Assembly (NCBI GenBank): GCA_024278415.1
Contig: JAJRTI010000073.1
Coordinates: 1-19,387, forward strand
Length of the DNA: 19,387 nucleotides
Direction: 5' to 3'
Source of the DNA: Planctomycetota bacterium
GTDB taxonomy: Bacteria > Planctomycetota > Brocadiia > JAJRTI01
Positions 3 to 13,734 of the stretch are shown piece by piece (the first letter of the stretch is position 1; every line of letters starts with the position of its first letter). Position numbers and translations under genes: made by a program. The notes under the pieces are model-generated. The model saw nothing but the letters and a program-made list of their open reading frames with translations, was not told the DNA's origin and did no database searches.

Positions 3-590
3 GCCTGTACGGACGTGTCGGCTGGACATTTGGCGGACGCGATGCGCGTGTGCGAGCGGATCCTCGCGGTCTGCCCGGACCACGAGGACGCGCAGGCGAT
101 GTGGGACCAGGTCCAGAGCCGCCACGACCGGGCCGCGCAATTGTATGGGGCCATCGAGCGCGGCCTGCAAGGCCAGACCGGCCTGGACGAGTTGGCGAGC
201 TTGCTGGCCGAGGCCGTGGACACGTACCCCGATCATCCGCTTGCCCATGCTGTCCAAGTGCGCATGGCAGCGAAGGCAAGGGAGTACAGACAGTACATGG
301 ACGAGGGCATGGCCTCCGCGGGCCGGGGCGACTGGGATGGAGCCCGGACCTGCTTCGAATCCGCCGCCAGGCTTAACGCGGGGGCCGCGCACGCGGACCG
401 GCCGGTGCGTTTCGTCGACCAAGTGCTAACCACGCGCCTGGAGGCCCGGCAGCGCATCGACACCGCAATCGCGGCCGGGAACGGGGACCGGGCCATGGCG
501 CTCGCCCAGCGCCTCGACGAGTTTCTGGAGGAGATGCGCCAATCCGTTTCCGCACCCGACTGGAGCCCACCCCATGACCACAACCCTTGA
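3..590 (+). CDS. TPR-like helical repeat protein, 5' partial
   Basis: The frame is open from the window edge, so the true start is probably upstream. A GTG at 15 is the first possible start inside the window, but no ribosome site supports it. The first visible segment fits a tetratricopeptide pattern (small residues, Ala/Tyr spacing, a Pro-Asp turn at each helix-pair boundary), followed by two more TPR-like helix pairs around residues 60-80 and 100-120. TPR proteins are protein-binding scaffolds, and no catalytic motif is visible. Its last 17 bases overlap the next gene, which points to translational coupling with the sigma-like, beta-rich and protease genes that follow. The TPR call rests on pattern only. 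Confidence 0.7.
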   Translation, partial: ACTDVSAGHLADAMRVCERILAVCPDHEDAQAMWDQVQSRHDRAAQLYGAIERGLQGQTGLDELASLLAEAVDTYPDHPLAHAVQVRMAAKAREYRQYMDEGMASAGRGDWDGARTCFESAARLNAGAAHADRPVRFVDQVLTTRLEARQRIDTAIAAGNGDRAMALAQRLDEFLEEMRQSVSAPDWSPPHDHNP

Positions 591-1716
591 GCCCAGGAAG
601 ACGACTCCTGCTGGTCAGGACAGGAACGGCTACGCGCGCCTGTCCCTGGTCGAACTCGCGGCTCGCATCGCCAATTGCGGGGATCGAGACGCGCTGCGCG
701 AACTCCACGACGAGCGCGCGTTGTTTCGCATCGCAGACAGCCGGCCCCTGCGGCTCGCCGCATTTGTGGACGGGCTGTGCCGTCGCCGCGCGAGGACAGA
801 ATCCCGCCAGGCCCTGCTGGACCGGGCGTACGACCTGACTATCGACAAATTCACGCACCTGCCGGCGGGCCAGGCAGGGACGCGGCCCGAGGGTCCCGAT
901 TGCCGCTGTTACTTCCGGTGCTTCCTCCGTCAATGCCGGCGATGGCACGGCGAGCACCCCCGCGCCCATCCGCTGCAGGCGGAGGCCGCGGCGAGGGGCA
1001 TTCTCACTCGATTGGTCGTTCGGCACTTCCGGCTGTCCTGTGCCGAGGCCAACCGATGCGTCAACCCGGCGCGCACCCGCTACGTCTGGCGCGTGAACGG
1101 CGGCGCGATATCCCTGTGGATGCCGGCGCACCTGGCTGGGGCGCAACGAGGCGCTTGGCTGGCCGCGCACGTGGACGAGCCCGATCCCCGTCGCGTGAAC
1201 GAACGTGTGCGCGTTCAAGAGATCGTGGACCGCAGCTTCGGCCACATGCGTCACCTGCCGCTCGACGAACGCGACGACGCCTTGCTGGTGGCCGCGGACA
1301 CCGGTCCCCCGATCGAGGACGACGTCTTCGCCCACGGCTTGGCATCGGTGGTCGCCCACGAGAAGGCCAATACGCTCGACCGGCAGCGTCCCGCGATTCG
1401 GAGCCTGGGGCCAGGCGCCGTGCACCAACTCGTGCTGCGGATTCTTGGAGACTTGGAGGACGGCTGCTACGAGGAGAAGGCCGTCGCGGCGCAGTTCGGG
1501 CTCAGCCCCGCGACCCTGAGCCGGTTTGCCGGCAGCCGCTGGCGTCTGGGTCCCGCGCGCCGGCCGCCCGACCTGTGGCTCAACGTGGCCCAGACGCTCG
1601 CCCTGCACGAGACGTTCGTCGACGCGGCGCGGGAGGCAGGCGTTTGGGACAACGTGGAGACACTGCTCGCGGAACATCCAACGCACTCGCTGGCGGAGGT
1701 AGACCATGAGCGATGA
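574..1716 (+). CDS. Unknown protein with C-terminal sigma-region-4-like HTH
   Basis: 380 residues, starting at the ATG that overlaps the end of the TPR gene. Near residues 300-325 is a helix-turn-helix stretch (EEKAVAAQFGLSPATLSRF) of the kind seen in sigma region 4 and related DNA-binding domains. The N-terminal half has an alpha-helical, Arg- and Cys-rich stretch with some resemblance to the start of ECF sigma factors, but I cannot identify a clear region 2. The middle holds a compact tryptophan-containing segment (about 165-185) that looks like a separate fold. Likely role: DNA-binding or transcriptional regulator of this operon. It ends with an 11-base overlap into the next gene, again suggesting coupled translation. 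Family assignment is tentative. Confidence 0.75.
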   Translation: MTTTLEPRKTTPAGQDRNGYARLSLVELAARIANCGDRDALRELHDERALFRIADSRPLRLAAFVDGLCRRRARTESRQALLDRAYDLTIDKFTHLPAGQAGTRPEGPDCRCYFRCFLRQCRRWHGEHPRAHPLQAEAAARGILTRLVVRHFRLSCAEANRCVNPARTRYVWRVNGGAISLWMPAHLAGAQRGAWLAAHVDEPDPRRVNERVRVQEIVDRSFGHMRHLPLDERDDALLVAADTGPPIEDDVFAHGLASVVAHEKANTLDRQRPAIRSLGPGAVHQLVLRILGDLEDGCYEEKAVAAQFGLSPATLSRFAGSRWRLGPARRPPDLWLNVAQTLALHETFVDAAREAGVWDNVETLLAEHPTHSLAEVDHER

Positions 1717-2269
1717 CCTGTTCTTCATCCCTCTCCTCGCGGCCGCGCTGGAGCGACACGACACGCGCGGCGCTATTGCGGCGGCCCTGCAAGAGATCCA
1801 GAGGGACGCGTCCGCGCCGGCATCCCAACAGGGATACCGGCAGTTCCTTCAGTTCATGGCCGCGGCCCGCGACGCGGAGCAAAACGGAGACGCGGAACGG
1901 CTCCACAATCGCGTAGACCGCATTGGGTCCATGGAGCTGCACGTGGTGCGGGAGGGCATCGTGGTTGGCCGAGGCCGGCTGGGGTCTCAGCGCCGCGCCT
2001 GCACGATCGAGGGCATTGTCCCCGGCCGATACGGCCTGCGGACGGACTCGGGACGGATCCTCTGGGAAGGACACATCGCGGCCGAACAGGTGCTGTGGAG
2101 CCAGGCATACCCCCGGCAGGCGCTGAGGGCGGCCGCCGATACGGGCCAGCCGGAAATGGCTCCTACTCGTACGGTCTCAGTGCCGCAGGCCGGCCTCGTC
2201 ATCCAGACGCACGCGGGCATCGAGGCCGGCTCCGTGACGATCGCGCTCTGTTTTGAGGAGACGACATGA
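1706..2269 (+). CDS. Small beta-rich hypothetical protein
   Basis: 187 residues. The start ATG lies inside the end of the preceding gene (ATGAGCGATGA junction). Residues 1-65 look helical. From about 70 to the end the chain is rich in alternating hydrophobic residues with a GRYGLRTDSGRILWEG turn motif and a closing strand pair, suggesting a beta-sandwich. There is no signal peptide or membrane segment, so it should be cytoplasmic. My impression is that such proteins travel with sigma-like regulators in large-genome bacteria, but I cannot name a family. Its TGA overlaps the start of the protease gene by four bases (ATGA), so the two are almost certainly co-translated. Function unknown. Confidence 0.8.
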   Translation: MSDDLFFIPLLAAALERHDTRGAIAAALQEIQRDASAPASQQGYRQFLQFMAAARDAEQNGDAERLHNRVDRIGSMELHVVREGIVVGRGRLGSQRRACTIEGIVPGRYGLRTDSGRILWEGHIAAEQVLWSQAYPRQALRAAADTGQPEMAPTRTVSVPQAGLVIQTHAGIEAGSVTIALCFEETT

Positions 2270-3663
2270 CGGACCCGGACCAAGCCATCGGCCGGGCCAA
2301 GACCGTGCTGGTCTTCGGATCGGGCCCCATGGCCCGCGCCGTCGTATCGTCCGTGGTCGTGAAGCACCGGCCACGACGACCGCGGCGGCGAATGCGGTTC
2401 CGCGGGCGAGTGGCGTTCGCGCCGGTCGCTCGGGCCCACCTGCAGGACACCTTGCTGCCGGCCGTGGACTCGGTGGCTGCCGCGCTCGGCGTCAAGCGCG
2501 CCGGCTTCGACCTGTCCGTGGTGAATGTGGGCGCCGCGGCGAGCCGGGACGCCGGCTTCGCGATCGCCGGCTTCTCGGCCGACGCGCCGCTGTTCCTGGC
2601 CATGCTGTCGGCCGCGCTGAAGATGCCGGTGCGGCAAGACGTGGTCGCCACCGGCCACGTCGCGTCCGAGGACGGAGATCTGCGGCCGGTGAGCAGCCTC
2701 CCCGCCAAGCTGGCCGCGGCCGCAGAGGATCAGGGCATCCGAACGTTCGTCGCGCCGTGCCTGGATTCGGACGCGTCGTTGCGGGAGCTTTCCCCAAGCG
2801 AACTGGAGTCCGCCAGAGAAGCCATCGCTCAGGCCAAGGGACGGGTCGAGGTCGTGTGCGCGTCCGGCGTGCATGAACTGGCGCGCGCCTGTCTGACCGA
2901 CGAAGGCATTGTGCGCGCCGCGCTACAGATCGGGTTCTATGAGGGCGAATTGTCCGAGGCCGACGAGGCCAAGCCCATCGCCCGGCTGGCGCGATGGCTC
3001 GCGCAGGACAATGAGTCCAGGTACTGGCGCGTCATGGAGGCCGCGTTGCTGAATGGACGCACGGCGCTCGCAGCAGACCTGCTCCGGCATCGCATCCGCA
3101 ACCAAACTTCGCGCAAGCAGTACCCCGCCGCGTTCGGCCAGCGTCTCCACGACCTGCTCGCGTCGGTTCCCCGTCCAGTGCGACAACTCAAGATCGAGTT
3201 CCCCTTGGTCCCGGTGGGCGTGTGCCTGCAACTGAGCCGTCACATGGCCGCGGCTGATCAGGCAGACCTGCAACTGCTGTTAGACGCGGTGGCAGGCCGG
3301 CGCGTCCTGGACCAGTCTGCGGGCAAGTCCGGCCTCGAAGGCCGCGCCGGCAACCAGGAAGATGACGCCGCCGGCGGCCCTGCTGAAGCCGTCCTGAACG
3401 CCGTGCTTGACGAGGTCCGTCCAGATGCGCTCGCTAGAAACGTGGGCATGCCCATCGATCAAGCCCGCGCCGGGTACGTTCTGCGCGACGTGACGCTGGA
3501 CTCGTACGACGCGTTCCTCCAGATCGTGCAGGCCTTCTACCGGTCGCTGTTGCGCCACGCTGGGCTGTCCAGCCTCTGCGCGGCCCCCCGCCAGGCCGGC
3601 GACGAAGCCATGGCTCTGCTGGGCCGCGCATTCCAGGACACCGGCGGCTTGGACGCGGCCTAG
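2266..3663 (+). CDS. Lon/S16-like Ser-Lys protease fused to an interrupted F domain
   Basis: 465 residues up to a TAG at 3661-3663. Residues about 60-165 match the proteolytic domain of Lon (peptidase S16). The GFSAD segment places Ser104 where Lon has its catalytic serine (GPSAG), and the PVSSLPAK segment places Lys148 where Lon has its catalytic lysine. The spacing of 44 is close to the 43 in E. coli Lon. No AAA+ ATPase domain is present, so it resembles ATP-independent Lon-like proteases. After an acidic, glycine-rich linker (about 340-365) the last ~100 residues are the N-terminal half of the F domain also found at 3984, 4573 and 7795. The C-terminal half follows in the same frame after the TAG. 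The ATG overlaps the previous stop. Confidence 0.8.
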   Translation: MTDPDQAIGRAKTVLVFGSGPMARAVVSSVVVKHRPRRPRRRMRFRGRVAFAPVARAHLQDTLLPAVDSVAAALGVKRAGFDLSVVNVGAAASRDAGFAIAGFSADAPLFLAMLSAALKMPVRQDVVATGHVASEDGDLRPVSSLPAKLAAAAEDQGIRTFVAPCLDSDASLRELSPSELESAREAIAQAKGRVEVVCASGVHELARACLTDEGIVRAALQIGFYEGELSEADEAKPIARLARWLAQDNESRYWRVMEAALLNGRTALAADLLRHRIRNQTSRKQYPAAFGQRLHDLLASVPRPVRQLKIEFPLVPVGVCLQLSRHMAAADQADLQLLLDAVAGRRVLDQSAGKSGLEGRAGNQEDDAAGGPAEAVLNAVLDEVRPDALARNVGMPIDQARAGYVLRDVTLDSYDAFLQIVQAFYRSLLRHAGLSSLCAAPRQAGDEAMALLGRAFQDTGGLDAA

Positions 3664-3963
3664 GCTGAGGCCCGGCTCGGCGCGAACGGAGGCATGCGGT
3701 ACGTGCTGGACCTGATGACTGAGCAGTTCAAGACCGAGCAGCAGGCCAAGCGCGTCAGCCGCGCGTTCAAGGCCGCGCTCGACCCCCTGGACTGGGACGC
3801 GCGCGTCGCGTTCATGGCCGCGTTCATTCGACGCATGGGCGACCACCTGCCTCCCGAGATTCGCGAACAGCCTCCTCAACGGTTTGCACGCCACTACGAA
3901 CAGATTCTCAGAACGTACGTGCAGTCGCTCGACCGCGTCAAGCAACTGCTCAATAGGCTCTGA
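3664..3963 (+). CDS. C-terminal half of the protease-fused F domain, after in-frame TAG
   Basis: This is the same reading frame as the protease gene, continuing past TAG 3661-3663 with no frame change. The first ATG is at 3694 (89 residues), but homology to the F proteins begins before it: AEARLGANGGMRYVL here lines up without gaps with NDAHDGTNGGMRVVL in the 3984 gene. The GGAGG before ATG 3694 is only one base away, too close to be a good ribosome site. So this is more likely the tail of a 565-residue protein, either read through or orphaned by a nonsense mutation, than an independent gene. It ends in TGA at the same relative place as its paralog. Conserved features include DPLDWD and a C-terminal YVQSL helix. 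Confidence 0.6.
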   Translation, partial: AEARLGANGGMRYVLDLMTEQFKTEQQAKRVSRAFKAALDPLDWDARVAFMAAFIRRMGDHLPPEIREQPPQRFARHYEQILRTYVQSLDRVKQLLNRL

Positions 3964-3983
3964 CATCAGAAGGAGAAACGACC

Positions 3984-4562
3984 ATGGCCAGGATCGACAG
4001 CCTATTGGCCGAACTGGACGAGCGCCACATCGCTCAACGCGTGGCCCTTCGGCACGACGAGGCACGCATGCGCTTTCCGCTCCAACGTAACACGGTGGAC
4101 ACGTTCGACGAGTTCAGCCGACTTATATCGGACTACTGCTCGTCCCACCTGCAGGCCGTGCTAAATGGAGCGGTCCTGCCCCGCGTGGAGGCCGCGAGCG
4201 AAGCCAAGGAACTCTTGGAGCAAGAGTACCGTAGGAAGGGCGGCGACATCGTGGCCGCGTTCAACGACGCCCATGACGGCACCAACGGCGGCATGCGCGT
4301 CGTGCTGGACGTCATCGCCGAAGGCTTGAAGGCGCGATCCGTCGAACGCCACATTCGCGATGTGTTCGACCGGCACGTGGCTCCCAATGATTGGGACACC
4401 AAGGTCGAGATCATTCGGCAGTTCATCGCTCAGTGCGGGGCCAACATGGCGTCCTCAATCCGCCCGGATCAGCCCGAGCGGTACGCGCACGACTACCGGG
4501 AGTTGATCGAGTCCTACGTCGAATCGCTTCGCCGCACGTCCTCCGTCTTCAGACGTCTGTAG
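3984..4562 (+). CDS. F-domain protein 2 (unknown function)
   Basis: 192 residues, with a good ribosome site (AAGGAG about 8 bases before the ATG). Entirely F domain, predicted mostly helical, with no catalytic motif or membrane segment. The N-terminal half carries a DTFDEFSRLI-type segment matching DSYDAFLQIV in the protease fusion. The C-terminal half has NGGMRVVLD, APNDWDTKVEIIRQFI and a final YVESLRR helix. It is the closest relative of the protease-fused copy, from which it differs mainly by lacking the stop. It ends in TAG, aligned with the TGA of that copy, so TAG is a genuine stop here. Eleven bases separate it from the next F gene. No function can be assigned. Confidence 0.85.
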   Translation: MARIDSLLAELDERHIAQRVALRHDEARMRFPLQRNTVDTFDEFSRLISDYCSSHLQAVLNGAVLPRVEAASEAKELLEQEYRRKGGDIVAAFNDAHDGTNGGMRVVLDVIAEGLKARSVERHIRDVFDRHVAPNDWDTKVEIIRQFIAQCGANMASSIRPDQPERYAHDYRELIESYVESLRRTSSVFRRL

Positions 4563-4572
4563 GAGACGAATC

Positions 4573-5163
4573 ATGTCCACCAAGCTCGAACAGTTGCTGG
4601 AGAGCATCTCTCACGAACGGACGCTGGACGACGTGAGCCGGCTCACCGATGACGCTCTCAACGCGCTGCCGATCCGGGACGCCCAAATCACAGACTGGGA
4701 GGCCTTCCGGCGCGCCCTGATCCAGTGCATGCAACACGTGGAGGACAGCGTCCTTCGAAGAACGCCTGTAGGGGCGACCCGACGCGCGGACCTGGATTTC
4801 GAGTGGGGACGGTGCTGCCACGTGCTCACCCAACTCTATGGCCCCAACGGCGAGAAGGCCGCGTTCGAGAGGGCGCGCACCGGCAACGAGGGAGGCCTGC
4901 GCCAGGTGATTAGGGACTTCGCACGAAGGACGGCCGAAGACACGGCGCAGAACGAGATTCGGGCCAAGGTCGGCAACTGGTGGCTCGAACTCTCCGTGGA
5001 CGAGCAGCTGGCGGTCGCGGACGAGTACCTGCGCAGATTTGGGCATCTGTTGCCTTCGGAACTCACCGAAAGGAGCGCCGCGCGCATCCGAGCGAACATG
5101 CCCCAGGTGCTCGAGCAACACCCGCGGCTCATGCAGCCGCTCGCGCGAGTGGGCAGGGGCTGA
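4573..5163 (+). CDS. F-domain protein 3 (diverged, unknown function)
   Basis: 196 residues, with AGGAGA about 7 bases before the ATG. Clearly related to the 3984 product but more diverged. The best-preserved stretch is AAFERARTGNEGGLRQVI, gapless against AAFNDAHDGTNGGMRVVL. The N-terminal ITDWEAFRRALIQ segment and a C-terminal SELTERSAARIRANMPQ stretch keep the pattern of helix boundaries, but the DW of the N-D-W motif is lost. Helical throughout and probably cytoplasmic. Tandem position after another F gene suggests duplication followed by divergence. It ends with TGA, and a 125-base gap with a repeat then precedes the ATPase genes. Confidence 0.8.
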   Translation: MSTKLEQLLESISHERTLDDVSRLTDDALNALPIRDAQITDWEAFRRALIQCMQHVEDSVLRRTPVGATRRADLDFEWGRCCHVLTQLYGPNGEKAAFERARTGNEGGLRQVIRDFARRTAEDTAQNEIRAKVGNWWLELSVDEQLAVADEYLRRFGHLLPSELTERSAARIRANMPQVLEQHPRLMQPLARVGRG

Positions 5164-5220
5164 GCGTCATCGCGCGGAGTAACGTACGGGCTCTGCGACG
5201 ACGATGGTGTTTCTAAAACC

Positions 5221-5250
5221 GAGCTGAAATCCCAAGGCCCGTTCGCCCGC
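5221..5250 (+). repeat. Leader repeat copy A (upstream of split ATPase)
   Basis: Thirty bases that align without gaps to 8419-8448. Both copies share CTGAAA near the left end and CCGTTCGCCCGC at the right end. The gap 5164-5288 that contains it has no gene and no obvious promoter. A ribosome site (GGAGG) follows at 5279-5283, ahead of the ATG at 5289. Confidence 0.55.
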
Positions 5251-5288
5251 GGCGTACCGGTGGAAGTCCATGACCTGTGGAGGCCCAC

Positions 5289-5843
5289 ATGTCCATCGAA
5301 CAAGCGCTCATCGCCAAAGCCCATCCCTACATGCTCGCCGAAAAGGCTCGCGCCGTGCTGCGGCAGGAGACGAGCAAGGGCTGCACCCCCTACATAGGCC
5401 CCAAGCCAACCGCGCTGGAGCCGGCGTACGAGCCGCTGTCTGACCCCAGGGACGCGCTCCCAGGAGCCGACCTGTCCGCGGTCGTACTGGCGTCTCCACT
5501 GCCCCGGGACGAACTGGTGCGGCTTCGAGTCTGGCTCTCGCCCAACCAGGTTTGCGACTGGCGCCGGTCCGAGCTGTTCCTCAAACAGCTCTCCAGGGTC
5601 CGACACCGCGTTGCGTTCGAGATCGTGGGCAACCGCGAAGACATCGCGTTCCATCTCCTTCTGGCTCGACGCGACCTGCCCACGATCCGCACTGCGTTCG
5701 ACGGGCAGTTCGAGCTGTGTGAGATGACGGAGATCAAGCGCGATCCCTTGAGTCGCTTCTCGGAGAGAACGTGGAGCCGCGCACGGTTCAGAGACGTGTT
5801 CCCGCCTCCGCCATACTCCCACCTCCTCACTCGGCCTACCTAA
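5289..5843 (+). CDS. N-terminal part of a conjugation-type ATPase (split by TAA)
   Basis: 184 residues from ATG 5289, chosen over the GTG at 5277 because GGAGG lies 5 bases before it. The segment FEIVGNREDIAFHLLLARRD followed by a strand-helix ending in FELCEMTEI is the pattern found at the N-terminus of VirD4/HerA-like ATPases of integrative elements, ahead of the motor domain. The frame stops at TAA 5841-5843, but the same frame stays open after it and continues straight into the next gene, where the expected second half of this N-terminal region is found. So this is best read as the front part of one ATPase of about 838 residues. Alternative: a genuinely separate accessory subunit. Confidence 0.65.
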   Translation: MSIEQALIAKAHPYMLAEKARAVLRQETSKGCTPYIGPKPTALEPAYEPLSDPRDALPGADLSAVVLASPLPRDELVRLRVWLSPNQVCDWRRSELFLKQLSRVRHRVAFEIVGNREDIAFHLLLARRDLPTIRTAFDGQFELCEMTEIKRDPLSRFSERTWSRARFRDVFPPPPYSHLLTRPT

Positions 5844-5882
5844 CTGCATCGATCGCCCTTTGCCACGGTCATCGCCGCGCTC

Positions 5883-7808
5883 ATGACCGTACCAGAGTCT
5901 GCGCTCGGTTTCTATCAGGCCCTGTTCGCCCCCACGCCGCCGGACCATGACTGGCACCGAAACGTGCGCGCACTGCTGGACTTGGAGTTCTCGATCAAGC
6001 TGGCTGCAGGCCTGCCCAGCGCGTACCGCTACGCGCAGCAGATGCCCTCAGGCGACCTCAAGCAGATGGCCATGGACACGGAGGAGAAGGCGCACAGCGA
6101 CAAGCCGTTCTTCTTCGCCGCACTGCGGCTGGGCGTCGTGAACGGCCGAGAGCAGGCAGACACGCTCATGCAGTCTCTCGCGGCCGGGGCCGGTCTTCTG
6201 CAGCACGGAGGTCGGCCCATGAACTGCCTCACGGAACATGACTATGCCGAGCATCTGCCGGCCGCGGTGACACGGGATCTGTTCGCGCAAGGCCTCACGT
6301 ACCGCCCCGGCTTCCTCGTGAATTCATGGGAGCTGACCAGCCTCGTGCACCTGCCTCCCTCGGACATCATCGATCCGAGGCGGCAGGCTGTGGCTGTCTT
6401 GGAGACACTTCCCCCGGAGGGATCGCTATCTCGTGGCACCCCGATCGGCCAATGTCTGTACGCAGGCATGTGGCGATCCGTCTGCATTCCCTCGGACATG
6501 AGATCCAAGCACGTTCACCTTATCGGCCGGCCCGGCATGGGCAAGTCCACCGTCATCGAACACATGGTCCTCCACGACGTGGGACGGGGCGAGGGCGTGG
6601 CCGTGCTGGACCCACATGGGCAGATGGTGCAGCGCTTGCTCGGCCTGCTGCCCGAATCCTGCGCGGACCGCGTCATCTATGTTGACTTCAGCGACCGGGA
6701 GTGGGTGCCCATCTGGAACCCCCTGATCCCCGGGCCCGGCACGCCCATCGGCCGCGTGGCCGAGGACCTCGTGGGAGCGTTCAAGAGCTTCGTCACCGGG
6801 TGGGGCGACCGGCTCGAACACATGCTGCGGCACGCGATCTTCGGGCTCATGCACCTGCCCCAGGCCAGCCTGCTCGACGTGGCCAACCTCCTGCGTTGCC
6901 AGTCGGCAGAGAGCGAACGCCTTCGGCCGCTCGTGATCGAAGCCATGGACAACCCGCTGGCCAAAGCCTTCTGGCAGGAGGATTTCGCCAAGTACAGATC
7001 CGCCGACATCACGCCGGCACAACACAAGCTTGGCAAACTGGTGACCACCGCGGGCTCAGTGGCCCTGATGCTGTCTCAGAGCGATTCGGCGTTCAATCTG
7101 CGGGACGTCATGGAGACGGGCCGCATTCTGCTGCTGGATCTATCCAACCTGGGGGCCGAGGTGCAGGAAATCCTGGGCTGCTTCCTCATGTCCCTGCTGC
7201 ACCTGACCGCGGTGAGCCGGCAGCGAGACGCCGAGGGGGCGCTGAAGCCGTTCCACATCTACTGTGACGAGGCGCACAAGTTCCTCACCGACGCGATGGA
7301 GAACACGATCGCGGAGACGCGGAAGTTCGGCGTGTCGCTCACGCTCGCGCACCAGTACATGGCTCAGTTCAACACGCGCAAGGCCGGAGCCCTGTCCACG
7401 GTCGGCTCCACCGTCATCTTCAACGTGGACACTCGGGACGCGCAGTACCTCAAGAAGGACCTGCAGGGCCTGGCGGACATGGATGACATCATCACGCTCG
7501 ACGTGGGCCAGGCCCTCGCACGAATCGGCAACCAGGTCGTGAGGCTGAACACACACAAGCCCCTGGACATCGAGCCGAACAACGCCCGTGACCTGTTTAT
7601 CGCTCAGTCACGGGAGCGGTACCACAAGCCTGCAGATCAGATGCGCCAAGCCCTTCAACATCGAGGGGACCAACGATCTCCCAGGCCGAATGCGGAGGCG
7701 GTGCTCACTGTTCTGATGGACGAAGGAGGAGACCAGACAGGGCGCAATGCTAACCACACGACACCGCAGGACGTGCGCCAGGCCGACTTCACCTATGACG
7801 AGTTCTGA
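5883..7808 (+). CDS. VirD4/HerA-like DNA-translocase ATPase, main part
   Basis: 641 residues from ATG 5883. Walker A is GRPGMGKS (215-222), and Walker B is FHIYCDEAHKF with Asp462-Glu463. Downstream, TRKFGVSLTLAHQ is the sensor-like strand typical of type IV secretion coupling and HerA-type ATPases. No transmembrane helices are apparent, unlike classical VirD4, so it may work in the cytoplasm or dock on a membrane partner. Likely role: pumping DNA during transfer or segregation of the element. The ATG has no ribosome site, and ATPase-like sequence (FATVIAAL) lies before it in the same frame, reaching back to the TAA at 5841. The true protein may therefore begin at 5289. The end overlaps the fourth F gene by 14 bases. 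Confidence 0.85.
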   Translation: MTVPESALGFYQALFAPTPPDHDWHRNVRALLDLEFSIKLAAGLPSAYRYAQQMPSGDLKQMAMDTEEKAHSDKPFFFAALRLGVVNGREQADTLMQSLAAGAGLLQHGGRPMNCLTEHDYAEHLPAAVTRDLFAQGLTYRPGFLVNSWELTSLVHLPPSDIIDPRRQAVAVLETLPPEGSLSRGTPIGQCLYAGMWRSVCIPSDMRSKHVHLIGRPGMGKSTVIEHMVLHDVGRGEGVAVLDPHGQMVQRLLGLLPESCADRVIYVDFSDREWVPIWNPLIPGPGTPIGRVAEDLVGAFKSFVTGWGDRLEHMLRHAIFGLMHLPQASLLDVANLLRCQSAESERLRPLVIEAMDNPLAKAFWQEDFAKYRSADITPAQHKLGKLVTTAGSVALMLSQSDSAFNLRDVMETGRILLLDLSNLGAEVQEILGCFLMSLLHLTAVSRQRDAEGALKPFHIYCDEAHKFLTDAMENTIAETRKFGVSLTLAHQYMAQFNTRKAGALSTVGSTVIFNVDTRDAQYLKKDLQGLADMDDIITLDVGQALARIGNQVVRLNTHKPLDIEPNNARDLFIAQSRERYHKPADQMRQALQHRGDQRSPRPNAEAVLTVLMDEGGDQTGRNANHTTPQDVRQADFTYDEF

Positions 7809-8412
7809 CGACATTGAGGAACGCGCGGCAGGGATCGTCCGGCAACTGGTTGCGGGCATGGACGAAAATGAACTCGTGCGCCGCATCGACAGACCTATTG
7901 ACCAAGCAGCGGGGAAACTCATCGCCCAGGCGCCGCCCGAGTACTCCCACAAACAGCTCCATGCAGCGATCACCAGCTTCGTCCAGCAGCTCTTGCTCGC
8001 GGGAGCGGACAGAGAGGGCATGCCCCGTGCGCACGCGCACGACGAGGCGATCGCGATCATCGAACAGGGATACGAGGGCGCGCATGCCAAGGGGTACGAG
8101 GGCGCGGTACTGGACGCAATGGACCCGTCGCACCCAGGCCTGGCGTTGGTCCTGGCCCGAATCGCCGAGGCCGTCAAAGCCAGACACCGGCAGCTTCGGG
8201 TCACAGGACTCGCGGCCAAGCTCATCAATCCCAACGATTGGGAACTGAAGTGTGCGATCGCCGGCCTCCTTCTCGAACGCTGCCGGCCCTGGCTCACTCC
8301 CGAGCTTCAGGCCTGTGCGACGGAGCAGTTGGCCGACGACGTCGTGGACCTCCTCGCCCTCCATCTCGCCACCGATACCGGGGTGCAGCAGCTTAAGGCG
8401 AGCCCGTTCTGA
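7795..8412 (+). CDS. F-domain protein 4 (unknown function)
   Basis: 205 residues from the ATG at 7795, which overlaps the ATPase gene by 14 bases. An in-frame start further upstream would add a stretch that looks like ATPase-gene shadow. Related to the other F proteins: INPNDWELKCAI matches APNDWDTKVEII, and GAVLDAMDPSHPGLALVL aligns gapless with AAFNDAHDGTNGGMRVVL. The final helix of copies 1 and 2 is not conserved. Helical, with no catalytic motif. The overlap with the ATPase gene implies coupled translation, so at least this F protein is likely to act with the translocase. That link is inferred from gene order only. Confidence 0.8.
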   Translation: MTSSDDIEERAAGIVRQLVAGMDENELVRRIDRPIDQAAGKLIAQAPPEYSHKQLHAAITSFVQQLLLAGADREGMPRAHAHDEAIAIIEQGYEGAHAKGYEGAVLDAMDPSHPGLALVLARIAEAVKARHRQLRVTGLAAKLINPNDWELKCAIAGLLLERCRPWLTPELQACATEQLADDVVDLLALHLATDTGVQQLKASPF

Positions 8413-8471: not shown

Positions 8472-8508
8472 CCTCTGTCGCCGCTTGGTCGGCTCACAGG
8501 ACAGTAAC

Positions 8509-9540
8509 ATGGACATGACGCGCGAACATGGAGTCAGATCGACTCGCGAGAAGATCGCCATCTTCAGGGCGTGCTTCTCAGGGCTCGACCACGTGTACGG
8601 CACGTACGACCCGGCCACGGGCAGGGCCAGGCAGGTGAAGGAGCCCGTCACCGACTGGGTGATCCTACGGCACCTCACCGGGCAGAGGCCGTTCGGGGTG
8701 TATCTGCTCGTGCAGGATCGCACGCGGGCGTTGGCCGTCGATTTCGATAGTGAAGATCACGGGCCGCCGCGGGCGCTCGTGTCGGTAGCAGGGGAGTTGG
8801 GTATCCAGGCGTACATCGAGCGCAGCAAGTCCAAGGGGTACCACGCATGGGCGTTCTTCGAGAAGTCCGGCGTGCTTGCGGCCCACGCGCGTCGCGTCGC
8901 ACAGCTCATCCTCGACAGGATCGGCCTGCCCAACACAGAAGTTTTTCCCAAGCAGGACCGGCTCGGCCACGCCACCCAGTACGGCAACTTCATCAACGCG
9001 CCCCTGTTCGGTAATCTCGTGCCCCAGGGGCGCACCGTGTTCGTCGATCCCGTGACTCTCAGCCAGCCGTACGCGGACCAGTGGGCGCTGTTGGCAAGCG
9101 TGCGCCGTGTGTCGGGGACAAGGCTCAGCGAGATTGCTGAATCAACTGCAGTCGGTGAGAGTGAAGAGCCGCAGCGGACGCGGCCTCGCGCGGTGAGAGG
9201 AGGTAATGGAACTCCCTCGCAGACCTTCGGCCTCCCGCCCTGTGCGCAGCGCATGCTGGCGAAGGGGGTAGAGCATTACCAGCGCGTGGCCTGCTTCCGG
9301 CTGGCGGTGCACTTGAGGAAGGCTGGACTGCCCCTCGACTTCGCGCGTGTGTGCTTGGAGAAGTGGGCGGCCAAGAACCGGCCACGAGACGGCAAGAGCC
9401 GCATCACGCGGACGGAGATCGCGGAGCAAGCCGTCTGCGCGTACCAGAAAGATTACCGCGGGTGTGGATGCGAGGACCCAGCGATTCGACCGTACTGTCA
9501 TCCAGAATGCCCCCTGAAGGTCAGGGCCACGCAAACGTAA
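8509..9540 (+). CDS. Archaeo-eukaryotic-type primase (AEP) with C-terminal Cys cluster
   Basis: 343 residues from ATG 8509 (AGGA ahead of it; ATG 8515 is an alternative). The AEP/primase signatures are present in order: LAVDFDSED with metal-binding Asp78 and Asp80, then RSKSKGYHAWAFF with the conserved Ser-x-His-type motif (His112), then EVFPKQD. This matches the primase-polymerase domain of TOTE-type and related mobile-element replication proteins. The C-terminal third is helical and ends in a cysteine/histidine cluster (CGC...YCHPECPL, near residues 318-334) that probably binds zinc or an iron-sulphur cluster. No helicase domain is fused. Likely role: priming element replication after excision; an ancillary repair or defence role is also possible. 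Confidence 0.85.
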   Translation: MDMTREHGVRSTREKIAIFRACFSGLDHVYGTYDPATGRARQVKEPVTDWVILRHLTGQRPFGVYLLVQDRTRALAVDFDSEDHGPPRALVSVAGELGIQAYIERSKSKGYHAWAFFEKSGVLAAHARRVAQLILDRIGLPNTEVFPKQDRLGHATQYGNFINAPLFGNLVPQGRTVFVDPVTLSQPYADQWALLASVRRVSGTRLSEIAESTAVGESEEPQRTRPRAVRGGNGTPSQTFGLPPCAQRMLAKGVEHYQRVACFRLAVHLRKAGLPLDFARVCLEKWAAKNRPRDGKSRITRTEIAEQAVCAYQKDYRGCGCEDPAIRPYCHPECPLKVRATQT

Positions 9541-9548
9541 AAGCTGCC

Positions 9549-10011
9549 ATGTTGACAAAACGACGCCTCGCACCTCAGACACAGAGTGCCCGGATGCATC
9601 AGGCGCTGTTGCGCAGGTACCCGGCCAGGGATCGTCAACCCAGACGAACAGGGCCTGCGCGAGATCCTCACCCATCCCAGCAAAGCGGGCGACCGCCCCT
9701 CACAGTCGGCAGCCAGGTGCAGGGCCGTCTCTATGGCCCTGAGGTCAGGAGTCGATCCCAGGGAGTTCATTCAGCAACTGAGGGGGATTGGGTGTCTGTC
9801 TACCCAAGGGCAAAGTGGAACGATGGTGACATCATCGTCGTGTCTTGTCCGGACGCCATCGCGAAAGCCGGCGAGGAAGCCGAGGGCCGGGGGCTTGAGG
9901 CCGTCGATAGACGCACCCCCGGCGAAGTCGCTTCGTGCCGGCTGCGACTTGCCCTTTCGCTGCAAGTTCGGATGCAACGTATGCTCGCGCGGCTACAGCA
10001 AGTGCAGCTGA
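9549..10011 (+). pseudogene. Frame-damaged NrdJ-like TSCPD / C-terminal domain
   Basis: No single frame covers this gene, but pieces in two frames together spell the C-terminal region of B12-dependent ribonucleotide reductase. Frame 1 (about 9631-9795) has NPDEQG, then SMALRSGVDPREFIQQLRGI followed by GC, the TSCPD signature. The protein then continues in frame 3 as NDGDIIVVSCPDAIAK (about 9820-9865) and returns to frame 1 for the cysteine tail CKFGCNVCSRGYSKCS, ending at TGA 10009-10011. The first slip fits loss of one base near 9792-9795 (TGTTCT to TGTCT); the second lies between about 9900 and 9950. The start, perhaps ATG 9549, is also out of frame with the TSCPD part. Free-standing TSCPD proteins occur; this copy looks inactivated, or the sequence has indel errors. 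Confidence 0.65.
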
Positions 10012-10061
10012 TAGGTTGCTGCCTTCAGCCGCGCTCGGTCGCCAGGACGATCGGAGACACC

Positions 10062-10301
10062 ATGGAAACTGAATGCAATAACCTGAGCCTGCTCATGAAC
10101 GCACGCGACGTGGCCGAGGCTCTTGGCGTGAGTGAACGCTCCGTGTGGCGCCTCGCCGCGATAGGGGATATCCCACCACCGGTACGCATCGGACGATCGA
10201 CGCGGTGGCGACGAAGCACGATCGACTCATGGCTCACAACAGAGGAGCGGCGGGCCGCGCGACGGCAGAAGGCTGAAATGCGCGGCGACGAAGAAGCTTG
10301 A
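10062..10301 (+). CDS. Excisionase-like winged HTH (MerR/AlpA type)
   Basis: 79 residues from ATG 10062, with GGAG 5 bases ahead. A much longer open frame to the left is rejected because it is out of frame with the TSCPD domain it would cover. The sequence is a compact HTH_17-type domain: LLMNARDVAEALGVSERSVW, then WRLAAIGDIPPPVRIGRSTRW, then a WL-containing final helix and a basic tail. This matches AlpA/Xis-type DNA-bending proteins that help the integrase excise the element or act as transcriptional regulators. It sits two genes before the recombinase, the normal place for a recombination directionality factor. The stop overlaps the -35 box of the next promoter. Confidence 0.88.
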   Translation: METECNNLSLLMNARDVAEALGVSERSVWRLAAIGDIPPPVRIGRSTRWRRSTIDSWLTTEERRAARRQKAEMRGDEEA

Positions 10302-10326
10302 CAACGCACTGCGACGGCGCTAGTCT
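10298..10326 (+). promoter_or_regulatory. Promoter for the RHH-integrase pair
   Basis: TTGACA at 10298-10303, 17 bases, then TAGTCT at 10321-10326. The -35 is perfect and the -10 weak, as expected of a regulated promoter. The inverted repeat 10325-10348 begins on the -10 box, well placed for repression. Confidence 0.55.
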
Positions 10327-10348
10327 GTAATGTGGCTTTGCATTACAG
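10325..10348. promoter_or_regulatory. Inverted repeat, likely operator (or RBS-masking hairpin)
   Basis: CTGTAATG (10325-10332) and CATTACAG (10341-10348) are perfect 8-base inverted arms around an 8-base spacer. They lie between the -10 box and the ribosome site AGGAG (10347-10351) of the ribbon-helix-helix gene, and the right arm touches that ribosome site. The RHH protein or the HTH protein may bind here to control integrase expression. As RNA, the hairpin could instead mask the ribosome site. Confidence 0.6.
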
Positions 10349-10359
10349 GAGTCGTGGTC

Positions 10360-10587
10360 ATGGCAAGCAGACGACGCAAACAGACGACGAAGCGCCCCAA
10401 ACTCTCTATTCCCGTGGAGCACCTTCGTGAGCGAGTGGTCCGTAACCGCACGCTGAACGTCCGCATCACGGAGATGGAACGCAACCAGATCCACGACGCT
10501 GCAAAGCACATGGGCGTCAACATCAGCGACTACATCCTCGGCCTACACGCCGAAGCGTGGGAACAGATACAGAAAGGCAAGGTGTGA
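10360..10587 (+). CDS. Ribbon-helix-helix DNA-binding protein
   Basis: 75 residues. ATG 10360 is chosen because AGGAG lies 8 bases upstream. An earlier in-frame ATG at 10330 falls inside the inverted repeat and has no ribosome site. After a very basic N-terminus (residues 1-30) comes TLNVRITEMERNQIHDAAKH and then a helix with MGVNISDYILGL, the strand-helix-helix layout of Arc/MobC-like RHH proteins. Possible roles are autorepressor of this promoter, relaxosome accessory or partition-type protein. Since no relaxase is seen, repression through the adjacent palindrome is the simplest reading. The integrase ATG starts one base after its TGA, so the two are co-translated. Confidence 0.85.
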   Translation: MASRRRKQTTKRPKLSIPVEHLRERVVRNRTLNVRITEMERNQIHDAAKHMGVNISDYILGLHAEAWEQIQKGKV

Positions 10588-10588
10588 G

Positions 10589-12049
10589 ATGGCTGGCGGA
10601 CTTTACAGACGCAAGAGCCGGACTGGGAAGCCACTTCCCCGATGGTATATCTGGTGGCACGATGCTGATGGACGCCGCAGAGACAAGGCGGCGTACCGGG
10701 ACAAGGCGGCGAGTCGGAAACTGCTTCAAGATCTGGAGGTCGAGGCCGCCCGAGGTGAGACGGGCATGTTGGACCCCTTCGCGAAGTACAAGAGAACGCC
10801 GCTATCCCAGCACATGGCGGACTTCATCCCCCATGTGCGAACAGCGGGAGCATGTGCGAAGTACGTCGAAGGACTGAAGCACAAGCTTGAGAAAGCTCTG
10901 GGTGCCATGGAGGCAGTCCTGCCCACGGATCTGTCGACTGACAGAGCGGAGAAGTTCCTGCTCTGTCTCGTTGAGGAAGACGGGCTTTCCGCTAAGACGC
11001 GCAACGCCTACTTGGCGGCCCTGATCCAGTTCGCCGAATGGGGAGTGAAACGAGGACGGTGGCCCTCGAATCCCTTCAAGAGCATTGCGAAGCTCAACGA
11101 GGACGTGGATGTTCGGCGTCAGCGGCGAGCTCTGTCCGAGCAGGAACTCCGGAACCTTGTTGCAGCCGCAAAGGTGCGCGCATCAGAGAACTTCCGCCAG
11201 CAGTGCCCCAATGCTTCTGCCACGACGCTATCCAGACTGAAACGAACGGGACTGGAGCGCAGCCTGATCTACAAGATGGCTGCGCTAACAGGATTGAGGC
11301 GGAAGGAACTCAAGACGTTGGAGTGGGGCCATCTCTCTCTTGACACACCCGCAACAACGGTCACCGTTGAAGCCAAGAACGCCAAGGGCAAACGGGAAGA
11401 CACGGTTCCGATTCACATAGGCTTTGCTGAGGAGTTGAGGCAATGGCGGGCACTCCGAATGCGTGAACTCGGACGTCCCGTAGAAGCAGGTGACCGGGTG
11501 TTCCACATTGCTCACCGCCTGTTGGAGCAATTCGAGAAGGACTGTGCTTACGCGGGCATCCGACTCAAGGACGGTGCCGGACGGATCGTAGACTTCCATT
11601 CATTGCGGCACACCTTCAGCACACTGCTGAGTCGCGCTGGGGTGTCGCCGCGGGTGGCGCAGTCCCTCATGCGCCACGCCGACATCACGACCACGATGAA
11701 GACGTACACCCACGTAGAACTCATGGATCGTGTCGCGGCAGTCTCCGCATTGCCGGCCCTTTGGGACACGGTCGCACAGGCCGACATGGGAGTAGCGGCT
11801 GGGGCTGAGTCCCTCCATGCAGCCGCGCCAATGCATATGCCAAAGAATCTGTTGCTGGAAGTGTCTTCGGGTGACGCTTCAGGTCAGATCGTCGAGAACG
11901 ACGGACGGCCGTCAAACCGTGGTTTGGCGGCCGTCTGTGCAGAGAATGGCGGGATCTGTCAATTGGTGACAGCCCCTGGCAGAGAACACGCCCGGCAGGA
12001 CTCGAACCTGCAACCTTCGGATTCGAAGTCCGTGACTCTATCCAATTGA
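10589..12049 (+). CDS. int: Tyrosine recombinase / integrase
   Basis: 486 residues in the present frame. The N-terminal part (about 1-170) is an AP2-like arm plus SAM-like core-binding domain. The catalytic domain has Arg237 (TGLRRKE), a Lys in the beta-hairpin near 263-268, His337 and Arg340 (HSLRHTF), His363 (MRHADI) and nucleophile Tyr373 (KTYTHVEL). The full R-K-H-R-H-Y set is intact, so the enzyme should be active. After about residue 400 the chain is a low-similarity tail, and the last ~21 codons (from 11987) are the antisense of tRNA-Arg, with TGA at 12047-12049 inside the tRNA gene. The enzyme would cut and rejoin DNA at the tRNA-borne att site. It lies one base after the RHH gene and shares its promoter. 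Confidence 0.93.
   Translation: MAGGLYRRKSRTGKPLPRWYIWWHDADGRRRDKAAYRDKAASRKLLQDLEVEAARGETGMLDPFAKYKRTPLSQHMADFIPHVRTAGACAKYVEGLKHKLEKALGAMEAVLPTDLSTDRAEKFLLCLVEEDGLSAKTRNAYLAALIQFAEWGVKRGRWPSNPFKSIAKLNEDVDVRRQRRALSEQELRNLVAAAKVRASENFRQQCPNASATTLSRLKRTGLERSLIYKMAALTGLRRKELKTLEWGHLSLDTPATTVTVEAKNAKGKREDTVPIHIGFAEELRQWRALRMRELGRPVEAGDRVFHIAHRLLEQFEKDCAYAGIRLKDGAGRIVDFHSLRHTFSTLLSRAGVSPRVAQSLMRHADITTTMKTYTHVELMDRVAAVSALPALWDTVAQADMGVAAGAESLHAAAPMHMPKNLLLEVSSGDASGQIVENDGRPSNRGLAAVCAENGGICQLVTAPGREHARQDSNLQPSDSKSVTLSN
11987..12049. other. Probable attachment site (attR-side) within tRNA-Arg(TCG)
   Basis: The part of tRNA-Arg from its 3' end through the anticodon region to the D-arm overlaps the end of the integrase frame. 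Tyrosine recombinases of this kind usually use the anticodon or T-loop of the tRNA as the crossover core, with the element supplying an identical 3' part. The exact core cannot be fixed here because the second copy, at the far end of the element, is outside the window. Confidence 0.65.
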
Positions 12050-12060
12050 GCTACGGGCGC
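11987..12060 (-). tRNA. tRNA-Arg (anticodon TCG)
   Basis: Read on the minus strand from 12060. The acceptor GCGCCCG pairs with CGGGCGT (G1 opposite U72 is a wobble). The D-arm has GCTC/GAGT, the anticodon loop is CTTCGAA (anticodon TCG, reads CGA), and the T-arm GCAGG-TTCGAGT-CCTGC is perfect. The first anticodon-stem pair is an A-A mismatch. The discriminator is G and CCA is not encoded. The 3' half may now be supplied by the integrated element, which would explain the small imperfections (U72, A-A pair) if the element's copy differs slightly from the host's. Confidence 0.93.
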
Positions 12061-12068
12061 GGAACGCG

Positions 12069-12099
12069 CCTGCTGCGCCGGCGGGGCCGGCGCAGCAGG
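12069..12099. other. Perfect 14-bp hairpin between tRNA-His and tRNA-Arg
   Basis: CCTGCTGCGCCGGC (12069-12082) is followed by a GGG loop and its exact complement (12086-12099). It is very GC-rich and lacks a U-tract in either direction. It lies between two tRNAs of one transcript, so it may be a processing hairpin or a weak terminator-like pause site. Confidence 0.6.
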
Positions 12100-12104
12100 G
12101 GAGG

Positions 12105-12178
12105 GGTGAGAGAGGGGATTTGAACCCCCGGCCTCCTGATCCACAGTCAGGCGCTCTAACCAACTGAGCTACTCCCAC
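12105..12178 (-). tRNA. tRNA-His (anticodon GTG)
   Basis: Minus strand from 12178. The acceptor GTGGGAG pairs with CTCTCAC (one G-U pair). The D-arm is GCTC/GAGC, the anticodon stem CCTGA/TCAGG with loop CTGTGGA (anticodon GTG), and the T-arm GGGGG-TTCAAAT-CCCCT (one G-U pair). The discriminator is C73 and the base just before G1 is G (12179), giving the G-1:C73 pair that is the histidine identity mark. CCA is not encoded. Confidence 0.97.
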
Positions 12179-12194
12179 CACGGCTTGCACGCGG

Positions 12195-12268
12195 CGCGCC
12201 AGCGAGGATTCGAACCCCGGACCTGCGGATTAGAAGTCCGCTGCTCTATCCAACTGAGCTACTGGCGC
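12195..12268 (-). tRNA. tRNA-Arg (anticodon TCT)
   Basis: Minus strand from 12268. The acceptor GCGCCAG pairs perfectly with CTGGCGC. The D-arm is GCTC/GAGC, the anticodon stem GCGGA/TCCGC with loop CTTCTAA (anticodon TCT, reads AGA), and the T-arm CGGGG-TTCGAAT-CCTCG with one G-U pair. The discriminator is G and CCA is not encoded. First gene of the Arg-His-Arg cluster. Confidence 0.97.
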
Positions 12269-12344
12269 CTGCAAAATGGCGCTGGCAAGCTCGGGACACG
12301 CCCGTGCGTCTGCGAACGACTGCTAGGCCACACGCAGACTCAAG

Positions 12345-12372
12345 AGTATAGCACAGAACCGCAGGCAGTCAA
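12345..12372 (-). promoter_or_regulatory. Promoter of the tRNA cluster
   Basis: On the minus strand TTGACT (12372-12367), 16 bases, TATACT (12350-12345). Both boxes are near consensus, and the site lies about 75 bases before the first tRNA, between the permease stop and the cluster. Confidence 0.75.
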
Positions 12373-12386
12373 GGCTGCACTGCGCC

Positions 12387-13259
12387 TCAGCCCCGCCCGG
12401 CCTCCTTGGGGTCCAGCGCATCCCGCAGCCCGTCGCCGAGGAAGTTCAGCGCGAGCAGCGTGGCCGCGAGCGCGGCCCCGGGGAACACGATGAGCCACCA
12501 ATACATGCGAACCGGGTTGAGCGCGGCCGCGCCTTCCGCGGCCAACGAGCCCCAGCTCGCGTCGGGCGGCTGCACGCCCAGGCCGAGGAAGCTGAGGAAC
12601 GCCTCCTGGAGCATCACCGCCGGCACGGTGAGCGTCGCGTACACGATGACCGGGGCCATGACGTTGGGCAGCAGGTGCCGGGCGATGACGCTCCACATGC
12701 CCCCGCCCATGGCCCGGGCCGCGGCAATGAACTCGCGCTCCTTCAGCGCGAGCACCTGCCCGCGCACGATACGAGCCATGGTGAGCCATTGCACCGCGCC
12801 GAGCGCGACGAAGAGCAAGATGAGGTTGCGCCCGAAGATGACCATGAGAAGGATGACGAGGAACATGTACGGGAGCGCATAGAGCACGTCCACAAAGCGC
12901 ATCATCAGCGCGTCCACCCAGCCGCCCAGGTAGCCCGATACCGCGCCATAGAGCACGCCGATGAAGACGCTGACAGCCGTGGCCACCACTCCCACGGCCA
13001 GCGACAGCCTGCCGCCGTACAGGGTGCGGCTCAGCAGGTCTCGGCCGAGCGCGTCCGTGCCCATCCAATGTTTCAGCGACGGAGGCTGGTGCTGCTCCTC
13101 CAGGGCCTGGGTGCGGGGGTCGTACGGCGCGAGCCACGGCGTGAGCAGCGTCACGGCAACCAACGCGGCGAGAACGCCAGCCGCGGCCAGGGCCATGCGG
13201 TTGCGGCACAGGCGGGTCCACGCGTCGCTCCAGAGCGTTCGGTTTGCAGTGGCAGCCAT
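12387..13259 (-). CDS. ABC peptide/oligopeptide transporter permease, OppC/DppC type
   Basis: 290 residues from ATG 13259. An inner-membrane permease subunit of a peptide (or nickel/oligosaccharide) ABC importer. The N-terminal membrane helix (about 22-42) is followed by the HWMGTDALGRDLLSR motif typical of OppC/DppC proteins. Further helices lie near 85-110, 120-150, 200-225 and 253-275. The EAA loop that contacts the ATPase is at about 177-200 (EFIAAARAMGGGMWS). Length is normal and the protein looks intact. Its usual partner, an OppB/DppB permease, would be expected just upstream (right of 13259), but the next kilobase has no gene, so it appears as an orphan here. Substrate cannot be told from sequence. 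Confidence 0.93.
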   Translation of the reverse strand: MAATANRTLWSDAWTRLCRNRMALAAAGVLAALVAVTLLTPWLAPYDPRTQALEEQHQPPSLKHWMGTDALGRDLLSRTLYGGRLSLAVGVVATAVSVFIGVLYGAVSGYLGGWVDALMMRFVDVLYALPYMFLVILLMVIFGRNLILLFVALGAVQWLTMARIVRGQVLALKEREFIAAARAMGGGMWSVIARHLLPNVMAPVIVYATLTVPAVMLQEAFLSFLGLGVQPPDASWGSLAAEGAAALNPVRMYWWLIVFPGAALAATLLALNFLGDGLRDALDPKEAGRG

Positions 13260-13700
13260 CGTGCCGTTGCCGTCCTATTCGTTCAGCCGCAGTTCGCCGG
13301 CGAGATGGACACTTAGGTGAGCATCGCCAATGCCTTTGGACTGTAGCCCACACGCGGCAGCAGGTCAAGGCAGCGCCCGGCCACCCGGCCATGGGCCAAC
13401 GCGGCACGCACCGCATCTGCCTGCACCCGATGCATGCGCAGTGCGCACACCATGCACCCGGCTAGCGTGTGAAGCAATGGCGGAAATGGCCTAATGTGGG
13501 CGCACGCCGCCTTGCCTAAGCAGCGCTTCAACTTTTCAGGCACCTTCGCCGCCCTGCAACGACAAGTCACTCGCGCTGCACGGCCACATCCAGACCGACA
13601 GAGTCTAAGCGCGCAGCAGGCCATTCGCCACAGCGGCGGACGAGGCCGTCCGCTGTGAGTGACTCGACAGAAAATGGCAAAAAAAATGCCGTTTCTTTCT
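13260..13700. other. No convincing gene; minor hairpins only
   Basis: Several short open frames exist on both strands, but none has a ribosome site or recognisable sequence. A bulged hairpin, CACAG/CTGTG outside CGGAC/GTCCG, lies at 13629-13657. An A-tract lies at 13671-13686, just before the -35 box of the next promoter, like an UP element. Confidence 0.5.
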
Positions 13701-13728
13701 TTGACAAGTGGCAGACCTCCGCTATACT
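13701..13728 (+). promoter_or_regulatory. Strong sigma70-like promoter with upstream A/T tract
   Basis: TTGACA at 13701-13706 (perfect), 16 bases, TATACT at 13723-13728 (five of six, identical to the -10 box of the tRNA promoter). An A-rich stretch at 13671-13686 and a pyrimidine run precede it. Expected start near 13735. It resembles promoters of stable RNAs more than those of ordinary genes in this window. Confidence 0.75.
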
Positions 13729-13734
13729 GGAGAA

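Follow-up and report, generated by a model that had tools for sequence, protein, structure and literature searches.

Four paralogous F proteins, a Lon-type protease and a HerA/VirD4-type ATPase in the conserved core of an apparent family of tRNA-targeted integrative elements

A 19,387-nucleotide contig of a Planctomycetota bacterium (referred to below as the window) carries four copies of a domain of about 190 residues, F1 to F4, around a gene for a DNA translocase, and the question it raises is what these proteins do there. The initial annotation, made from the sequence alone, had taken them for diverged tandem duplicates of no named family, one fused to a protease, and had suggested a multi-subunit assembly in which they are adaptors, substrates or paired components. 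The features discussed are listed in Table 1.

Table 1. Features of the window and, in the last row, of related loci.
Feature	Position	Strand	Remark
Ser/Thr kinase-TPR protein, C-terminal TPR part	15-590	+	TPR matches; kinase+TPR genes of relatives
S574, core protein, 380 aa	574-1716	+	13-row alignment
U1706, small acidic core protein, family unassigned	1706-2269	+	
S16 (Lon-type) protease domain, helical segment and N-terminal half of F1	2266-3660	+	
F1 domain	3379-3960	+	fused to S16/Lon-type protease in relatives
In-frame TAG inside F1	3661-3663	+	absent from relatives
F2	3984-4562	+	most conserved core protein; nine-helix model
F3	4573-5163	+	
H, ATPase N-terminal domain	5277-5840	+	same gene as ATPase in relatives
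In-frame TAA between H and ATPase	5841-5843	+	absent from relatives
HerA/VirD4-type ATPase	5883-7808	+	TrwB_AAD_bind, phrog_5156, PDB HerA chains
F4	7795-8412	+	start overlaps ATPase stop
Archaeo-eukaryotic primase, AEP-TOTE family	8485-9540	+	PF22548, 8.5e-33
TSCPD C-terminal remnant of ribonucleotide reductase (RNR)	9586-10011	+	long version in L011, L018
HTH_17 excisionase-like protein, approximate start	10092-10301	+	residues 248-296 of ORF 9351-10301, 6.4e-10
NikA-like mobilisation protein	10330-10587	+	borderline, score 27.0 = cut-off
Tyrosine recombinase	10589-12049	+	PF00589, 5.5e-20; ORF extends into tRNA-Arg
tRNA-Arg	11986-12061	-	3' end toward element
JAB, E2-like and E1-like (ThiF) genes upstream of F core	L023 11404-14673; L024 1650-4721; L021 1533-4626; L019 4754-7906; L020 3559-6797; L067 10206-12959		

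The four copies of F are real: in local alignments, five of the six pairs scored above all 300 shuffles, while the F3-F4 pair was at chance level and is linked via F1 and F2 only. Scans of F2, F3 and F4 against Pfam, NCBIfam and PADLOC gave no match above the cut-offs, which bears out the absence of a named family, and the matches to PHROGs were weak (phrog_762, 3.5e-5, for P0007; phrog_28287, 0.0037, for F3). The phrog_762 family is a phage family of unassigned function; its weak likeness to F2 covers residues 68 to 182 of P0007, with 52 of 98 members at E ≤ 0.5. A search with an alignment of the four F sequences returned 962 proteins at E ≤ 1e-3 among 7,997 scored candidates. Among the 120 matches listed, identity to F2 was 59 to 74%, the window's own rows excepted, and none of them carried a Pfam domain. 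The enlarged alignment (A3) held 76 of the 117 matches considered (<85% mutual identity) and 22 rows from loci, and excluded P0067, an F1 piece joined to F2.

In the tree of the F sequences each F position formed a group of its own, that of F1 less firm than those of F2, F3 and F4, and duplication therefore preceded the spread of the block. Recent repeats are thus ruled out as the origin of F, and the description of the copies as old duplicates holds. Three F4 rows (L003, L007, L010), from fragments that end upstream of F4, were mislabelled; they were present in the first HMM and the first tree and are excluded from the final tree, the distance correlations and the pI figures. The predicted model of F2 had nine helices (pLDDT 91.9, pTM 0.86), and in that of the Lon-F1 protein of a relative, L003 (pLDDT 82.8), the F1 part repeated the helix order of F2. 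The finding of different folds, which was to have spoken against a common family, was thereby ruled out for F1 and F2, the two copies modelled. Structure searches with F gave no convincing match. With mean pI values of 5.5-7.1, the F proteins range from neutral to acidic; this indirectly favors contacts with protein over contacts with DNA, and DNA binding by F was set aside from the pI. F is an unnamed, strongly conserved protein family without an assigned fold. As a separate observation, a C-terminal half of F occurs alone in L041/L076 (1276-1713, minus strand; 45 bits, 146-aa ORF) with no element around it; a nearby ORF looks helicase-like by eye and has no Pfam match.

Two of the genes associated with F turned out to be interrupted in the window. 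The initial annotation had composed the first F copy of the end of the protease gene and a tail behind its TAG; the F1 content was right, but what it had treated as two units is one interrupted gene. The frames at 5277-5843 and 5883-7808 make up a second such gene, which is a single one in relatives. Lon and F1 were in one frame in all 21 relatives showing both, confirming the proposed fusion, and so were H and the ATPase in 20 of 20. For these counts, overlapping loci were taken once and the first block of L016 was used; the two loci entered as lacking the Lon/F1 fusion (L022, L070) are cross-matches to the housekeeping Lon gene, and the window was scored as joined since its stop lies behind the N-terminal half of F1. 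A split in both genes was found in the window only. Recoding of the stop codons was ruled out for both, since F2 itself ends in TAG and the relatives are open at these positions. The two in-frame stops, together with the truncated RNR gene, suggest that the window copy is decaying or that it contains sequence errors; intact versions are found among relatives.

The protease keeps the S16 Ser and Lys columns, invariant in all 17 rows with the window included. Its profile match was to archaeal Lon (1e-8), and the model of a relative's protease resembled the proteolytic domain of Escherichia coli Lon (Foldseek E 3.2e-8). The chain consists of the S16 domain, a helical segment and F1. The ATPase, with the Walker A motif GRPGMGKS in the window, matched TrwB_AAD_bind (7.6e-8) and phrog_5156 (7.1e-32), had HerA chains as its nearest PDB matches, and was weakly similar to the PADLOC models mad8 (5e-12), HerA and DndH; its nearest phage match was gp156 of phage G, at about 20% identity. 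VirD4-type coupling proteins have an N-terminal membrane anchor. None was seen at the N-terminus of this ATPase in a crude hydropathy scan of eight loci, the fused H-ATPase having at most one borderline hydrophobic stretch, near residues 618-636. Nowhere in the core did the same scan find a clear membrane helix. Lon and the ATPase gave borderline stretches of a kind seen also in soluble proteins such as RNR, and S574 of L017 had one at a probably mis-set start.

We then mapped the surroundings of F in relatives. A single scan of genome contigs, using patterns taken from 30 F2 rows, gave 18 related loci, a lower bound because the scan needs exact peptide patterns. Their hosts were Planctomycetota, Desulfobacteraceae, Pontiella sulfatireligans (Kiritimatiellota), Verrucomicrobia, Sumerlaeota, Ignavibacteriae and unclassified bins, and the related loci span six phylum-level groups. 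Maps made with tblastn and HMMs gave the core order S574, U1706, Lon+F1, F2, F3, H+ATPase, F4, primase. This order was whole in 8 of the 18 loci (L005, L006, L009, L011, L013, L015, L016, L017; L015 is counted though the contig edge cuts its S574), and in the other 10 members were cut, interrupted or missing. Contig ends cut the block in L001, L002, L007, L008 and L018, which agree as far as visible. L010 stops about 1 kb past F3, with no H; L014 stops 1.3 kb past F4, with no primase; in L012 Lon+F1 is preceded by a transposase gene, and neither S574 nor U1706 was matched; in genome G001 (L003 with L019) the block lies in two divergent halves, and L016 has an additional, partly broken Lon/F1-F2 block. 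Among divergent versions, G451 reads JAB, E2, E1, F2, F3 (weak), S574, U1706, Lon+F1, H+ATPase, F4, and G631 reads U1706, Lon+F1, H+ATPase, F4, with F2, F3 and the primase not found; the short contig of G105 holds the ATPase and F4 only. A primase near F4 was not found in L014, G451, G631 or G105. Two further arrangements were seen: about 7.8 kb of other genes (8857-16643; ORFs of 1,642 and 617 aa) between F3 and H/ATPase in L004, and a second, partial copy of the VirD4-type ATPase (15649-16908) right behind the primase in L005.

The linkage of F with the ATPase was steady across loci and fits the multi-subunit assembly proposed at the outset. F and the translocase had been seen correctly in the window, but the wider block had been overlooked, namely the end of the kinase-TPR gene, S574, U1706, the primase and the integrase. 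This larger block appears to be the core of a tRNA-targeted integrative element. The C-terminus of S574 has the invariant motifs S-x(4)-S-R-F-A-G-x-x-W and P-D-L-W, which from their sequence might be HTH-like; the protein had no Pfam family above cut-off and no PDB match below E 0.15.

Mean identity across seven loci was highest for F2 (0.56), the primase (0.50) and the ATPase (0.48), followed by F3 (0.40), H (0.39), Lon (0.37), F1 (0.36), S574 (0.34), U1706 (0.29) and F4 (0.28); for the proteins of the upstream cassette described below it was 0.26 to 0.41 (3-4 loci). That F2, primase and ATPase are the slowest of the core is as expected of an element backbone. In a mirror-tree comparison with 300 permutations, the distances of F2 correlated with those of F3 (0.82), F1 (0.74), S574 (0.67), the primase (0.67), Lon (0.57), H (0.57), F4 (0.54), the ATPase (0.48) and U1706 (0.36); such correlations show joint inheritance, not contact. 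F was matched in 5 of 392, 3 of 288 and 2 of 395 genomes of three phyla, each count including the centre genome, itself picked for having F, with the best 8-11 candidates scored per genome. The five include the genome of L002 (G172), the G105 fragment, a lone half domain (G051) and a match that is probably due to chance (G119, E 8e-5). The distribution of the element is rare and patchy.

Evidence for mobility came from the region behind the primase. A primase followed by at least 3.5 kb of sequence is present in eleven loci (the window, L001, L009, L011, L012, L013, L015, L016 with L033, L017 and two copies in G862), and in 10 of them a tyrosine integrase lies no more than about 3 kb from the primase. 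The exception, L012 of Pontiella, gave no integrase match and has a tRNA-Leu nearby in the other orientation. Beside the integrase, six of the 11 have a tRNA with its 3' end facing it (Arg, Asp, Asp, Lys, Asp, Glu). The two G862 copies (L070, L071) share 95.8% identity across 4,190 ungapped bp, the identity breaks at the start of the integrase, and their integrases differ, one adjoining tRNA-Asp and the other tRNA-Glu, which suggests that the backbone moves as a unit; both pieces are partial, and G862, a MAG, may mix strains. In G862 a ParA gene adjoins the primase, and in G451 a serine recombinase follows the block in place of the tyrosine one. The relaxase family Replic_Relax, detected by Pfam in three genomes and by our own HMM in two more, lies directly 5' of S574 in L014 and 5' of the H/ATPase gene in L019; in G003, G005 and G451 it is some 9-24 kb away from the block, of which it may not be part. 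The only relaxase-like gene of the window is that of the borderline NikA-like protein. ArdC genes occur near the block in G003 and G005, and RNR genes lie 3' of the primase in L011, L018 and G001. A search for att direct repeats in G005, G007 and the window found none, and an unsystematic look noticed no T4SS genes. Beyond the tRNA, the window has a nucleotidyltransferase gene (14933-15286) with an overlapping ORF (15240-15530, no Pfam match), perhaps an MNT/HEPN pair. At 16037-17116 an ERCC4 nuclease domain is accompanied by helix-hairpin-helix motifs and, C-terminally, by a weak match of nuclease type.

Upstream of the core, five genomes (G001, G003, G004, G005, G007) carry genes for a HerA-type ATPase, two coiled-coil proteins, a WD40 protein and a kinase-TPR protein before S574; this cassette is cut or diverged in G002, G006, G009 (other strand) and L008. 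Ahead of it in the same five genomes, and also in G451, are JAB, E2 and E1 genes, giving six genomes from at least three phyla, five of which also have the HerA, coiled-coil, WD40 and kinase genes. No JAB, E2 or E1 gene was found in the G006 and G009 pieces, and no ubiquitin-like modifier was recognised beside E1/E2/JAB in the relatives. In L012, L014, L016 and L017 the core has no cassette adjoining. The cassette region would lie outside the window, which opens inside the kinase-TPR gene, so that the kinase part would precede it; a kinase catalytic motif was found by pattern in only some of the kinase genes and was absent in L003, L005 and L011.

The reading we prefer, in which we place about even confidence, is that the F proteins are adaptor or scaffold subunits of a cytosolic protease/DNA-translocase assembly that forms the backbone of a tRNA-targeted integrative element family. 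F belongs to the core, whose gene set and order are conserved, together with old F paralogs, an S16 protease that keeps its Ser-Lys pair and a HerA/VirD4-type ATPase; a primase is present in most loci, and the integrase adjoins tRNAs. The adaptor role we infer. F2 would be the hub on which F1, F3 and F4 pack by F-F contacts, and F1 would tether the protease to the translocase. The ATPase ring might move element DNA, as a coupling protein or a dsDNA pump, and the primase might copy it. The protease held there could cut a regulator, for which S574 is a candidate, or a subunit, and cleavage would switch the element between a resting and a mobilised state. More tentatively, and doubtful as a whole, F, the S16 protease and the membrane-free HerA/VirD4 ATPase may form a new kind of cytosolic machine, a DNA translocase coupled to a protease, which would drive the life cycle of integrative elements of an undescribed family; in many copies the ubiquitin-like and kinase cassette would control it. 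We found no description of this family in the literature.

The main rival, possible though we lean away from it, is that the whole block is an anti-invader conflict (defence) system on a mobile island, in which the ubiquitin-like cassette and the kinase sense infection, the HerA/VirD4 ATPases capture foreign DNA and the protease is the effector, with F as its adaptors. The JAB, E2 and E1 genes of six genomes and the HerA, WD40 and Ser/Thr kinase genes upstream do have the look of a conflict system, the primase family is named for TOTE conflict systems, the distribution is patchy, and the ATPase has its weak resemblance to mad8, HerA and DndH. Against this stand the four cores that lack an adjoining cassette, the slow evolution of F2, primase and ATPase, the steady tie to the integrase, and the absence of any match of F, S574 or U1706 to a defence model.

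Two other roles for F appear far less probable. As structural subunits of a shell or filament, with the F1-fused enzyme as maturation protease as in phage heads and the ATPase packaging DNA, a very unlikely reading, F would account for four paralogs with one fused to a protease and for the very high conservation of F2, and the ATPase matches to phage G gp156 and phrog_5156 and the weak one of F2 to phrog_762 would fit. However, no capsid, portal or tail genes were noticed in an unsystematic look, and S16 is not known among the usual phage-head protease families. Viral contigs yielded 57 stretches that matched an F2 pattern, with no relative confirmed, a further search gave one record at E 10, and phage origin was rejected as first choice; plasmids yielded no relative of F2. 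Scarcely probable is a role of F as the target of the fused protease, in which the F proteins would make up a proteolytic timer or a set resembling antitoxins and would not be partners of the ATPase. F1 does sit on the protease chain and F2 and F3 follow directly behind it in most loci, but F4 keeps its place beside the ATPase, and the constraint on F2 is very strong for a substrate that would be disposable. What the locus adds is an F family tied to an apparent mobile element family across several phyla. In this element a protease is coupled with a DNA pump and a primase, and ubiquitin-pathway genes adjoin it in six genomes; it thereby offers an entry point for studying possible effects of regulated proteolysis and ubiquitin-like modification on mobile DNA.

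Several known systems share parts of this gene set. The protease has the fold and the Ser-Lys pair of Lon (S16) proteases and, unlike Lon proper, lacks the AAA+ unfoldase module on its chain, has G-x-S-x-D around the Ser and carries F1 at its C-terminus. A Lon-like protease is also part of BREX. Unlike BREX, the element has a primase, an integrase and F, and a scan of ten window proteins gave no methyltransferase match and none to PglZ or PglX, with a weak BrxA match (E 0.003) to the TPR part only. Multi-gene sets with a HerA-type ATPase are common to BREX and the HerA/FtsK capture systems, as far as an excerpt of PMC12839542 describes them. Prokaryotic operons with E1-like, E2-like and JAB genes on mobile clusters are likewise described in part of PMC1779556; here such genes stand beside HerA, coiled-coil, WD40 and kinase genes and the F core. 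The actinomycete integrative and conjugative elements (AICEs), reported from Actinomycetales only in the accessible part of PMC3218068, carry a PF09250 Prim-Pol and a PF01580 FtsK-type Tra and share with our element Int, a primase-polymerase, a DNA-pumping ATPase and insertion at tRNA 3' ends; the same part of that paper names no F or protease for them. Here the ATPase matches TrwB/HerA models and the primase PF22548, so that by its defining genes the element is not an AICE. The streptococcal IMEs of class 8, as presented in the available portion of PMC5357655, combine a MobC (PF13814) relaxase with a VirD4 coupling protein. Our element is like them in having an integrase, a VirD4-type ATPase and a Replic_Relax gene, which adjoins the core in two relatives and lies in its vicinity in three; it differs in its mostly tyrosine integrase, the four F proteins, the S16 protease, S574/U1706, the AEP-TOTE primase, the ubiquitin-like cassette and its occurrence in other phyla. 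By this analogy it resembles mobilizable elements with a PF13814 relaxase and VirD4, its own relaxase and transfer being putative.
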